Source of the DNA: Coriobacteriia bacterium
GTDB lineage: Bacteria; Actinomycetota; Coriobacteriia; Anaerosomatales; Anaerosomataceae
Assembly: GCA_030655755.1 (NCBI GenBank)
Contig: JAUSOQ010000049.1
Location: 1-64,000 of the forward strand
Direction: 5' to 3'
DNA length: 64,000 bases
Both the position numbers and the translations under genes were made by a program. Of the stretch, positions 11,683 to 64,000 are shown piece after piece. Within the stretch, counting starts at the first letter, position 1. Each line of letters begins with the position of its first letter. The notes beneath the pieces were generated by a model that worked only from the letters and a program-made list of their open reading frames with translations, ran no database searches and was not told where the DNA came from.

Positions 11683-12317
11683 CAGTGGGTGAGTGGATCA
11701 AGACATTCAAACAGGGTCTTTCCATCGAGAACCCGCTCACGGTGCTCATGATCGGTCTGTGCGCCACACTCGCGGTTTCCACACAGGTGCAGGGCGCCCT
11801 GTTCATGGGACTGGCGGTCATCTTCGTACTCACGATGAGTAACGCCATCATCAGTACGTTTCGGAAGGTGATCCCCACCGAGGTGCGTATCCCGATCTTC
11901 ATCGTGATCATCGCGTCGTTCGTCACTATCGTCGACCTGACGATGAAGGCGTTCCTGCCGGGCGTCTACCAGTTCCTCGGTATCTGGATTCCCCTTATCG
12001 TCGTGAACTGTATCATCTTGGGTCGGGCGGAGGCGTTCGCCTATCACAACAAAGTGGGGCTGGCGGTTGCCGACGGGTTGGGTATGGGTGTCGGTTACTG
12101 GTTCGTCATTCTCGTCTTGGCCTTCATTCGTGAGCTGTTCGGCACCGGCAGGATCGCCGTCTTCGGTTCCACACTTTTGACACTGCCATCGGGCTACGCG
12201 CCCCCGGGACTCGTGCTGATGTTCCCCGGAGCGTTCTTCATCTTCGGCTTCATGATCGCGATCACGCGTGCGGTCAGTGAGCGCGCCGCCAAGCGCAGGA
12301 AGGCGGTGGCGTCATGA
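11679..12317 (+). CDS. rnfE: Electron transport complex Rnf, subunit E
   Basis: A hydrophobic 212-residue subunit with about six membrane helices. Conserved RnfE segments include the N-terminal NPLTVLMIGLCATLAVST and NCIILGRAEAFA in the middle. Together with RnfA it forms the symmetrical membrane core that holds an iron-sulfur centre and couples electron flow to ion movement. The start is GTG at 11679, overlapping the rnfG stop; a GTG two codons later is an alternative. It overlaps rnfA by 4 bp. Confidence 0.93.
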   Translation: MTVGEWIKTFKQGLSIENPLTVLMIGLCATLAVSTQVQGALFMGLAVIFVLTMSNAIISTFRKVIPTEVRIPIFIVIIASFVTIVDLTMKAFLPGVYQFLGIWIPLIVVNCIILGRAEAFAYHNKVGLAVADGLGMGVGYWFVILVLAFIRELFGTGRIAVFGSTLLTLPSGYAPPGLVLMFPGAFFIFGFMIAITRAVSERAAKRRKAVAS

Positions 12318-42054: not shown

Positions 42055-42099
42055 GTCCATCGATCGAGCGTTGAGCAGGGTACGGAGTAGGAACACAAG

Positions 42100-58261: not shown

Positions 58262-58309
58262 GCTCGTCAGCTCGTCAGCCCGTCAGCCCGTCAGCCCGTC
58301 AGCCCGCCA
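58262..58309. repeat. 8-bp tandem repeat, six copies
   Basis: GCTCGTCA twice, GCCCGTCA three times and GCCCGCCA once, head to tail directly after recO. The period is not a multiple of three and no gene covers it. Confidence 0.9.
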
Positions 58310-58325
58310 GGCCCCTCCTCCGCCT

Positions 58326-58405
58326 CCATCGAAATCCGTCGAACGCAGGTCCCGAACATCGAAAGCCATCGATATTCGGGACCTCCCATCGAAAGCCATC
58401 GATAC
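58326..58405. repeat. 10-bp-phased ATCGA(T/A) array A
   Basis: Reading in blocks of ten from 58326: CCATCGAAAT, CCGTCGAACG, a non-matching block, ACATCGAAAG, CCATCGATAT, a non-matching block, CCATCGAAAG, CCATCGATAC. All matches share the same phase modulo 10. The last two 30-bp units repeat each other, except that their first ten bases are near-reverse complements. It lies upstream of glyQ. Confidence 0.85.
58347..58384. repeat. 10-bp perfect inverted repeat within array A
   Basis: AGGTCCCGAA (58347-58356) and TTCGGGACCT (58375-58384) flank an 18-nt loop that holds one ATCGAA and one ATCGAT. No T-run follows, so it is not a classic terminator, though it may act as a transcript end or protein site. 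Confidence 0.8.
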
Positions 58406-58540
58406 AGGTCGCAATAGCCCCCCTGTGTCTCCCGAGGTATCGCCGCCCCGGACGCGCGCCGTGGTGTAAGATATCGACACGTTCCGCGGACGCCATCGGC
58501 GGATATGATGACCACAGCGTCATGCAGGGAGATTGAACGT

Positions 58541-59407
58541 ATGAGACCGTTCGCATTCCAAGACATCATCCTCACACTCCAACGCTACTGGGCTGACCAG
58601 GGCTGCGTCATCTTGCAGCCATACGACAGCGAGGTAGGCGCCGGCACGTTCCACCCGGCCACCACGTTGCGGACGCTGGATCCCAACCCGTGGCGTACCG
58701 CCTATGTGCAGCCGAGCCGTCGTCCCACCGACGGTCGCTATGGCGAGAACCCGAACCGCCTGCAGCATTACTACCAGTTCCAGGTGATCTTGCAGCCGAG
58801 TCCGGACGACGTCTTGGATCTGTACTTCGGCTCCCTGCGCGCCATCGGTATTGATCCTGCGGAGCATGACGTACGTCTCGTCGAGGATGACTGGGAGAGT
58901 CCGACGCTCGGTGCGTGGGGTCTGGGATGGGAAGTCTGGCTCAACGGCATGGAGGTCACGCAGTTCACCTACTTCCAGCAGGTGGGCGGGATCGAGTGTC
59001 GGCCGGTCCCCGCCGAGATAACCTACGGTCTTGAGCGTCTCGCCATGTACATCCAGGGCGTCAACAGCGTTTACGACCTCACCTGGGTCGAGGGCTTCAC
59101 GTATGGCGACGTCTTCTTGGAGAACGAGCGTCAGTACTCCAAGTACAACTTCGAGCTTGCCGACATCGACATGCTCTACCACCTGTTCGACACCTACGAG
59201 GCGGAGTGCAAGCACCTGCTGGACGGGGGAGTCGTCCTGCCGGCCTACGATTACGTCCTCAAGTGCAGCCACGCGTTCAACCTGCTCGACGCGCGCGGCG
59301 CGATCGCCGTGACCGAGCGTGTGAGCTTCATCGGCCGTGTCCGCGAGCTTGCCAAGCGGTGTGCCGAGGCATACGCCGCGATGACGAGAGGCGGTGATGC
59401 GCAGTGA
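58541..59407 (+). CDS. glyQ: Glycyl-tRNA synthetase alpha subunit
   Basis: The 288-residue catalytic subunit of the heterotetrameric glycine enzyme. It begins [19 protein letters not shown] and includes [14 protein letters not shown] and [18 protein letters not shown]. The in-frame ATG at 58505 would add 12 residues without family similarity; 58541 has GGGAGA at 8-nt spacing. It overlaps glyS by 4 bp. No T-box leader is visible in the 68 nt below the only -10-like TAAGAT (58467-58472). Confidence 0.95.
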
Positions 59408-61482: not shown

Positions 61483-62283
61483 GTGCCTGCCGAGCGAACG
61501 ATCCTCATCGTCTCGGACGGTATCGGAGAGACCGCGCATCAGGTCACCAAAGCCGCACTCGGCCAGTTCGAGCCGGGTACGTTCCGCGTTGTGCGGCTGC
61601 CGAAGATGATGACCAAGCAGCAGCTGGCAGACGCGGTCGATGAGGGTTGCGCAGAGGGCTGCATCTTCCTCTACACGCTTGCTGACCCCACCATGCGCGC
61701 GGAGATGGAGCGATTGGTCGCCGACTGCGGTGCAGCGGCTGTCGATATCCTCGGCCCCGTGATCGATACCCTCGCAGCATCCGCCGGAACGTTACCGCTC
61801 GGCGTCGCAGGGACCATGCGCAAGATCGACAGAAGCTATTTCGAGCGCATTGGTGCGATGGAGTTCGCGGTCAATCACGACGACGGCAGGGGCGCCGAGT
61901 CGTTGGACGAGGCCGATATCGTACTTATCGGTGTGTCGCGCACGTCCAAGACGCCGTTGTCGATGTATCTGGCATCGCGCGGCCACAAAGTCGCGAACAT
62001 CCCGCTCGTGCCCGGTACCGACCCGCCCGAGGAGCTGTTCAAGGTCGAGTCGCGCCGGGTCTTCGGCCTGATCATCGAGAGCGATCTGCTGACCGAGATC
62101 CGGGCGAAGCGCATGGGGGAGCTGGGAACCTACACTCGTCGATACGCCGAGCCCGACGCCGTGGGACGCGAACTCGAGTGGGCGCGAACGGTGATGCGGC
62201 GGATAGGATGTGTCGCCATCAAGACCGGTGGTCGCGCGATCGAGGAGATCGCTCAGGAGATCTTGCGCTACTACAACGCGTAG
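61483..62283 (+). CDS. Pyruvate, phosphate dikinase regulatory protein (PDRP, DUF299)
   Basis: At 266 residues, this bifunctional kinase/phosphotransferase family member uses ADP to inactivate PPDK by phosphorylating an active-site threonine and reverses it with phosphate. The N-terminus is ILIVSDGIGETAHQV, and the P-loop reads GVSRTSKTPLS. The downstream ppdK supports PPDK over PEP synthase as its target. GTG start six bases after glyS. Confidence 0.92.
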   Translation: MPAERTILIVSDGIGETAHQVTKAALGQFEPGTFRVVRLPKMMTKQQLADAVDEGCAEGCIFLYTLADPTMRAEMERLVADCGAAAVDILGPVIDTLAASAGTLPLGVAGTMRKIDRSYFERIGAMEFAVNHDDGRGAESLDEADIVLIGVSRTSKTPLSMYLASRGHKVANIPLVPGTDPPEELFKVESRRVFGLIIESDLLTEIRAKRMGELGTYTRRYAEPDAVGRELEWARTVMRRIGCVAIKTGGRAIEEIAQEILRYYNA

Positions 62284-62298: not shown

Positions 62299-62338
62299 GC
62301 GGCCCGTCCACCGTGTGTGCGGCCCGTCCACCGTGCGT
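62299..62338. repeat. Two tandem copies of a 20-bp sequence
   Basis: GCGGCCCGTCCACCGTGTGT followed by the same sequence with one T-to-C change (62299-62318 and 62319-62338). Located just after the PDRP stop. Confidence 0.9.
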
Positions 62339-62349
62339 GCGGGGGGCTA

Positions 62350-62429
62350 CCATCGATGGCTTTCAATCGATGACACCGTCCATCGATGACCATCGATATC
62401 CTAGCCAATTCATCGATGGTTATCGATGA
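62350..62429. repeat. 10-bp-phased ATCGAT array B
   Basis: ATCGAT occurs six times in 76 bp (62352, 62366, 62382, 62392, 62412, 62422). Five of the six are at the same phase modulo 10, within blocks such as CCATCGATGG, CCATCGATGA, CCATCGATAT and TCATCGATGG. It shares the 13-mer ATCGATGGCTTTC (62352-62364) with the reverse complement of array A. Confidence 0.88.
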
Positions 62430-62430
62430 G

Positions 62431-62508
62431 GCTTACGCAACAACTTAGGTAGGCTCGCTTACGCAGCAACCTCGGCAGACTCGCCTGCGCAGCAACGCCT
62501 GCGTCAAC
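62431..62508. repeat. Degenerate 26-bp tandem repeat, three units
   Basis: Units begin GCTTACGCAACAAC, GCTTACGCAGCAAC and GCCTGCGCAGCAAC at 62431, 62457 and 62483. The second unit is very close to the first; the third is more diverged. Confidence 0.75.
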
Positions 62509-62653: not shown

Positions 62654-64000
62654 GTGTCCGACGTCAAACGTGTCTACGCGTTCAGTGAGGGCGACACTTC
62701 TATGAAGTACGTCCTCGGGGGAAAAGGCGCCAACCTTGCCGAGATGACCAGGCTCGGACTTCCAGTCCCCCCAGGCTTCACGATCACCTGTCAGGCGTGT
62801 GTCGAGTACTCTCAGGGTGGCAGCCGATTCCCGGAGGGGCTCGACGCGGAGATCGATCGCCACGTGGCTCAGCTCGAGGGCTCAATGGGCAAACGTCTGG
62901 GTGATGTCGCCGACCCGCTGCTCGTCTCGGTCCGCTCAGGCGCGCCGTTCTCGATGCCGGGCATGATGGATACCATCCTCAACCTTGGCCTGAACGATGA
63001 GTCCGTTCTAGGCGTGATCACCCAGACCGGCAACGCGCGTTTCGCGTGGGATAGCTACCGTCGTTTCGTGCAGATGTTCAGCAAAGTCGTGCTGGATGTC
63101 GAGGGCGATTTTTTCGAGAACGCCATCACAGCCATGAAGCAGTTGCGTGGTGTCCGCAATGACACCGATCTCACGGCGGAAGACCTGGAGAAGCTGGTCG
63201 GCCAGTTCAAGGAGATCGTGGCCGAGCACGTCTCGCCGGAGGAGTTCCCCGCGCTCGTGGTGGGCGGCAAGGTCGCTTTCCCGCAGGACGTCGCCATCCA
63301 GCTTCGACTCTCGATCGAGGCCGTGTTCAAGTCGTGGATGAACAAGAGAGCCATCGACTACCGGCGCCTCTACAGGATCGACGATTCGCTCGGCACCGCA
63401 GTCAACGTGCAGACGATGGTTTTTGGCAACAAAGGCGAGACTTCCGGTACCGGCGTCGCGTTCACGCGGAATCCTGCCGATGGCACCAACGAGTACTATG
63501 GCGACTTCCTTACCGACGCACAGGGCGAGGATGTCGTAGCAGGTATCCGCAACACTCAGCCGATCATCGAGTTGCTGGATGTCCAGCCCGAGGCGGGCGC
63601 TGAACTGTGGACGGTGTTCCAGACCCTTGAGACCCACTATCGCGATATGTGCGACATCGAGTTCACCATCGAGCAAGGCAAGCTGTGGATGCTGCAGACC
63701 CGCGTGGGCAAGCGTACCGCGCGCGCTGCCCTCAAGATCGCGGTCGACATGGTGGAAGACGGTCTCATCTCGCGCGAAGAGGCGGTCTTGCGCATCGACC
63801 CCGAGCAGCTCGACCAGCTCCTGCACCCGCAGTTCGACGCATCGGTCACCTACGATGTCCTCACCAAGGGTCTGAACGCGAGCCCCGGTGCGGCGGTCGG
63901 CGAGGTCGTCTTCACGGCCGAGGATGCCGAGCGCCTCAACAGCGAAGGCCGCAAGGTGATACTCGTCCGCTGGGAGACCACGCCCGACGACCTGCACGGT
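62654..64000 (+). CDS. ppdK: Pyruvate, phosphate dikinase, N-terminal part (runs off the window)
   Basis: An open frame of 449 codons from GTG at 62654 to the last base. It interconverts pyruvate, ATP and Pi with PEP, AMP and PPi. The ATP-grasp nucleotide domain is visible: YVLGGKGANLAEM, VSVRSGAPFSMPGMMDTILNLG, GTGVAFTRNPADG and MLQTRVGKRTA. It ends inside the start of the phosphohistidine domain (LVRWETTPDDLHG), just before the region with the catalytic histidine and the regulatory threonine. AGGGAG lies upstream of the start. Confidence 0.96.
   Translation, partial: MSDVKRVYAFSEGDTSMKYVLGGKGANLAEMTRLGLPVPPGFTITCQACVEYSQGGSRFPEGLDAEIDRHVAQLEGSMGKRLGDVADPLLVSVRSGAPFSMPGMMDTILNLGLNDESVLGVITQTGNARFAWDSYRRFVQMFSKVVLDVEGDFFENAITAMKQLRGVRNDTDLTAEDLEKLVGQFKEIVAEHVSPEEFPALVVGGKVAFPQDVAIQLRLSIEAVFKSWMNKRAIDYRRLYRIDDSLGTAVNVQTMVFGNKGETSGTGVAFTRNPADGTNEYYGDFLTDAQGEDVVAGIRNTQPIIELLDVQPEAGAELWTVFQTLETHYRDMCDIEFTIEQGKLWMLQTRVGKRTARAALKIAVDMVEDGLISREEAVLRIDPEQLDQLLHPQFDASVTYDVLTKGLNASPGAAVGEVVFTAEDAERLNSEGRKVILVRWETTPDDLHG

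Follow-up and report, generated by a model that had tools for sequence, protein, structure and literature searches.

Phased ATCGA-N6-TCGAT palindrome arrays upstream of ppdK and glyQS in a Coriobacteriia bacterium: candidate multi-site operators of an ArsR/SmtB-family regulator

Results

Anatomy of the Arrays Upstream of ppdK and glyQS

The window analysed here is a stretch of 64,000 nucleotides (contig C41:1-64000) from the assembly of a Coriobacteriia bacterium (G000; 2.13 Mb, 81 contigs). Near its end, the gene of the pyruvate phosphate dikinase regulatory protein (PDRP) is followed by ppdK, and the gap between them holds a repeat region, array B (Table 1). A sequence scan located ATCGAT at 62352, 62366, 62382, 62392, 62412 and 62422, and the position scan confirmed the 10-bp phase that the first-pass annotation had ascribed to five of these six copies. 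The true unit of the array is not the single ATCGAT word but a 16-bp palindrome, ATCGA-N6-TCGAT, with a period of 30 bp. The off-phase copy at 62366 shares bases with the in-phase half-site TCAAT at 62363-62367, and this half-site variant is also used in the congener G001. In total, the window contains 47 ATCGAT words versus 25.3 ± 4.4 in shuffled sequence. Exact 30-bp recurrence of TCGA-N6-TCGA units was observed three times, versus none in 300 Markov-simulated windows, and among the spacings of 14-60 bp between such units in the window, solely 30 bp and its double, 60 bp, were represented.

A second array of the same anatomy and opposite polarity, array A, precedes glyQS. The reversed orientation proposed for array B was supported by its non-core bases, which match those of A and of a further array, C, better when reversed (p ~0.001). 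The 13-mer on which the proposal had been based, ATCGATGGCTTTC, was found at 62352-62364 on the plus strand and twice on the minus strand of array A (58361-58373 and 58391-58403); a pattern search of the genome gave no further copies beyond these two arrays. CCATCGATCG is present at 42057-42066, as had been claimed, and is a lone site. Other single ATCGAT sites in the window, including that at 42059, were rejected as array members, since they have no phased partners. Both arrays lie upstream of, and not over, conserved segments that are putative promoters of the following genes. The segment before glyQS has no consensus promoter match, and the one before ppdK has no consensus sigma-70 match. 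The conserved start of glyQ may be the ATG at 58541 rather than 58505.

Table 1. Features of the array region of contig C41.
Feature	Position	Strand	Description	Basis
Tandem repeat	58265-58310		8-bp unit CGTCAGCC, 5.8 copies, directly before array A	TRF
Array A	58328-58403	+	three 16-bp palindromes starting at 58328, 58358 and 58388; period 30 bp	
Putative glyQS promoter segment	58464-58475	+	GTGTAAGATATC, conserved	alignment and position
glyQ	58505-59407	+	PF02091; first gene after array A	
PDRP gene	61483-62283	+	PF03618; before array B	
Tandem repeat	62299-62342		20-bp unit, 2.2 copies, directly before array B	TRF
Array B	62352-62427	-	three 16-bp palindromes; exact 30-bp period	direct reading, scan, spacing test
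Array B, unit 1	62352-62367		ATCGATGGCTTTCAAT	
Array B, unit 2	62382-62397		ATCGATGACCATCGAT	
Array B, unit 3	62412-62427		ATCGATGGTTATCGAT	
Tandem repeat	62431-62496		26-bp unit, 2.5 copies, directly after array B	TRF
Putative ppdK promoter segment	62533-62545	+	ATGCGATACGATA, conserved	alignment and position
ppdK	62654-64000	+	PPDK_N, PF01326; after array B, runs past the window end	
Array C	67591-67666	+	three exact units	polarity by statistical comparison of non-core bases
arsR ORF	67752-68024		~90 codons; 85 bp downstream of array C, 185 bp before hppA	
Array D	75678-75723	-	two units, between tRNA-Asn and tRNA-Met genes	polarity by inspection

A Dispersed Set of Arrays in the Genome

The rest of the genome was covered by pattern searches plus about 550 kb of sequence. 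Allowing at most one mismatch, CATCGANNNNCATCGA gave 46 matches across the genome versus 7 for the reversed control. Arrays C and D are found shortly past the end of the window, and all four clear arrays (A-D) lie within 17.4 kb of contig C41. The first-pass annotation had suggested mapping the orientation of all copies, and this gave a mixed-orientation set (A and C on the plus strand, B and D on the minus strand). The half-sites and their spacing are kept between arrays while the 14-bp spacers diverge. Arrays A, B and C have some non-core bases in common (a weak signal, p 0.0004-0.0014), and it is possible that one array was copied to another to some extent. The similarity is confined to the 78-83 bp of the array itself and the flanks are unrelated.

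These results bear on three proposals made earlier. The view of A and B as inverted partners that flank glyQ-glyS-PDRP is true as geometry; the partnership is incidental, as the set continues past them with arrays C and D. A mobile cassette boundary gained no support, as the similarity ends at the array edges, the flanks are unrelated and no transposase was seen in the ORFs adjoining the arrays; nor were target duplications noted on unsystematic inspection. The idea of a dispersed element family held up: no fewer than four arrays fall within 17.4 kb, a congener has two of these at matching loci, and a distant relative carries a variant family.

Two further candidates, arrays E and F (contigs C20 and C19), were left out of the clear arrays: each nearly duplicates the other, and they sit in a rearranged toxin-antitoxin region through which an open frame can be read. 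Contig C20 (L037, G000:C20:1-9459) has an identical 141 bp at its two ends and carries MqsA-like and AbiEi/AbiEii-like genes. The start of C19 (L038, G000:C19:1-329) is a mosaic of three C20 pieces, including the near-copied ATCGA array (C20:1785, C19:237). On contig C41, an apparent decayed gene of membrane/acyltransferase type was observed between dgt and array C (L036:2830-3340, G000:C41:66830-67340), and this remnant is followed by a tandem repeat of CGCCCCATGCCAC.

Distribution of the Arrays in Relatives

A search of 69 genomes from the order gave mismatch-free array matches in four: G000, G001 of the same genus, and the distant G029 and G047. The remaining matches, each with a mismatch and mostly in coding sequence, were taken for chance. 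A comparison with relatives had also been suggested earlier, and it showed that G001 has arrays C and D and lacks A and B. In G001, array C stands at the edge of one contig and the arsR and hppA genes at the edge of another, and array D adjoins the same amidase gene as in G000. Both occupy orthologous positions and carry paired half-site changes to ATTGA...TCAAT. The gap between the PDRP gene and ppdK is 370 bp in G000 versus 67-148 bp in 24 genomes of the family, and the two putative promoter segments are present in both congeners, of which G001 has neither array A nor array B. We concluded that the DNA holding A and B, upstream of these segments, is lineage-specific. This extra DNA also contains short tandem repeats.

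G029 has four arrays built of TTCGA-N6-TCGAA units: one array has two units, and each of the other three has three units at 30 bp. They are spread over four contigs and have no common gene neighbourhood. Two arsR genes of G029 have a TTCGA-N6-TCGAA palindrome upstream, matching these array units. The apparent operator of an arsenic-type arsR near G029:C137 positions 12240-12290 (L275:1230-1290) has a textbook look, with two such palindromes, 36 bp apart, bracketing a TATAAT box. The ArsR gene beside the array on contig C150 of G029 was rejected as its regulator: this ArsR is widespread in array-less genomes, its orthologs have no upstream palindrome, and we regard it as a coincidental neighbour.

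The Candidate Regulator Beside Array C

Array C is followed by a small arsR ORF and then by hppA, the gene of a membrane pyrophosphatase. The protein contains an ArsR-type winged-helix HTH domain (PF01022), with an E-value of 1.4e-12 in G000 and 1.6e-9 in its G001 ortholog, both over the cut-off. The NF033788 model scored above its cut-off for the G000 protein and slightly under it for the G001 protein. The PDB relatives of the protein are ArsR proteins. HTH_5 matches number four across G000. The G001 ortholog is 52% identical and also adjoins hppA. Cysteines C40 and C71 (P0002 numbering) are conserved in the pair, which has no CxC motif. At E <= 1e-12, this ArsR family was found in two of 400 Coriobacteriia genomes, both with ATCGA arrays. 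The co-occurrence is supportive and not decisive, because the two genomes belong to one genus and count as a single evolutionary event.

Similar Arrays in Other Bacteria

GTDB contigs were scanned by the three-unit TCGA-N6-TCGA pattern alone. Triple ATCGA-N6-TCGAT palindromes, for the most part at spacings of 26 and 29 bp, were present at 33 actinomycete loci (L110, L115, L121, L131, L145, L152 and about 27 others). An ArsR ORF abuts 32 of the 33, the single exception being a 767-bp stretch, and where the flanks were read a flavoprotein gene lies on the opposite, divergent side. The outer bases are A...T in 99 of 99 units; at each locus the pattern itself had restricted four of these six positions to A or T. 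Triple-TCGA matches in viruses and in other phyla (Dehalococcoidia, Lentisphaeria, Bacteroides and others) were mostly simple tandem repeats and were set aside. In viruses the control patterns GATC and ACGT gave 30 and 15 matches and TCGA gave 18, so the viral and other-phylum matches are generic. One Dehalococcoidia genome, CATQGW, carries dispersed 10-bp TCGATCACAA-like tandem arrays (L111, L116, L124, L155, L157, L166, L173 and L175), some of which have a 30-bp super-period and flanking ends in common. Similar decamer arrays were seen in a Lentisphaeria genome (L122, L142, L143 and L178).

Discussion

Judging from sequence, we lean somewhat towards the arrays being multi-site operators of an ArsR/SmtB-family winged-helix regulator. 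Their TCGA-N6-TCGA units fit the 4-N6-4 half-site core expected of such operators. The published 12-2-12 imperfect inverted repeats of this family, at the SmtB, ZiaR and AzuR sites, have a TGAA-N6-TTCA core (PMC8790569); in both cases 4-base half-site cores stand 6 bp apart, read as TCGA-N6-TCGA here. As with known operators of the family, a regulator gene adjoins an array, namely array C. Known operators, however, have a single palindrome or a pair and not a phased triplet (PMC8790569), and this counts against the assignment. They also lie near one promoter, whereas the present arrays have three units in a 30-bp register at no fewer than four loci, and two of them stand upstream of conserved putative promoters. 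The lack of consensus promoters at A and B, the presence of the regulator in G001 without A and B, and the failure of the G029 arrays to adjoin their likely regulators count against it as well.

A further close match is with the divergent arsR-flavoprotein operators of actinomycetes (L110, L131, L145 and others), in which three ATCGA-N6-TCGAT palindromes occupy one intergenic region beside arsR. These differ in spacing (26 and 29 bp versus 30 and 30 bp here), in their arsenic-type context, in a longer ArsR protein and in that one array was found per locus and no dispersed set. ArsO-type genes are discussed in PMC6514093. Another ArsR-family protein, Rv2034 of Mycobacterium tuberculosis, represses its own gene and positively regulates other promoters (PMC3338718). 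It resembles the array-C ArsR, as proposed here, in recognizing a palindromic site; its site is a single 8-N4-8 palindrome of unrelated sequence, with no phased arrays.

Three other explanations are weaker than the ArsR/SmtB one. The sites could belong to a nucleoid, partition or boundary protein with a chromosome-domain role on the 17-kb segment. The clustering of four clear arrays in 17.4 kb, in mixed orientation, next to genes of unrelated function and in one case between two tRNA genes, is what such a protein might leave. We nevertheless hold it improbable, since the segment has no clear GC-skew switch, the G029 arrays lie on four contigs with no common gene neighbourhood, parS-like sites are found elsewhere (on contig C9) and the presence of the arrays follows that of one particular ArsR gene. 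A specific ArsR/SmtB-type regulator fits the arrays better than a nucleoid-protein site. A replication terminus or strand switch at the arrays was discarded for the same lack of a clear skew change. The parS-like sites are two copies of TGTTTCACGTGAAACC in a 25-bp tandem repeat (L234:2141-2190, G000:C9:22141-22190).

The arrays could also be long-hairpin elements, that is, RNA or single-stranded DNA structures or small palindromic mobile elements, with the units merely reflecting the stem. Array A does fold into a near-perfect hairpin (z -7.0), because its two spacers, AGGTCCCGAA and TTCGGGACCT, are mutually complementary, and the G029 array on C150 folds as well (z -8.0); the non-core bases that A, B and C have in common, and the end of similarity at the array edges, would also suit an element of this kind. 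With the half-sites fixed, however, spacer complementarity was significant solely in A and not in B, C, D or the G029 and G001 arrays, which led us to reject a long-hairpin RNA as a common feature. The arrays matched no Rfam family, no intrinsic terminators were found and no transposase was noted, and we consider this explanation unlikely.

Equally doubtful is a neutral origin of the arrays by tandem duplication in intergenic DNA that is prone to repeats. In its favour, most intergenic-type tandem repeats in the 553 kb sampled adjoin arrays A, B and C, and the DNA around A and B is extra sequence specific to the lineage. Drift, however, would not preserve both the TCGA half-sites and a period of exactly 30 bp in arrays whose 14-bp spacers diverge, nor does it suit the retention of C and D in G001, at orthologous positions and with paired half-site changes.

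If the arrays are ArsR/SmtB-type operators, one regulator dimer would bind each 16-bp palindrome, and three dimers, about three helical turns (30 bp) apart, would all load on one side of the helix, in a probably cooperative manner. The ~90-aa protein encoded beside array C would be this regulator, with array C as its own operator, serving autoregulation of arsR and possibly also control of hppA. Further arrays that arose in this lineage, A before glyQS-PDRP and B before ppdK, would bring these genes under the control of the same regulator and of whatever signal the protein may sense, acting from upstream by repression or activation.

PDRP, PPDK and membrane pyrophosphatase have pyrophosphate chemistry in common. 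This chemistry would be a plausible theme of the PDRP, ppdK and hppA set, but G001 lacks A and B. We regard as tentative, and on balance rather unlikely, the further proposal that a lineage-restricted ArsR spread its three-site array to several promoters and wired the pyrophosphate-linked genes ppdK, PDRP, hppA and glyQS into a new regulon. If true, it would represent the recent birth of a regulon by operator dispersal in one chromosomal neighbourhood. The operator reading itself, if right, would mean that an ArsR-type operator can consist of three dimers in helical register and be used at several promoters, two of which gained the array, or the sister lost it, after the split of two congeners. 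The candidate regulator would then connect pyruvate phosphate dikinase with the proton-pumping pyrophosphatase in a Coriobacteriia lineage that has received little study.
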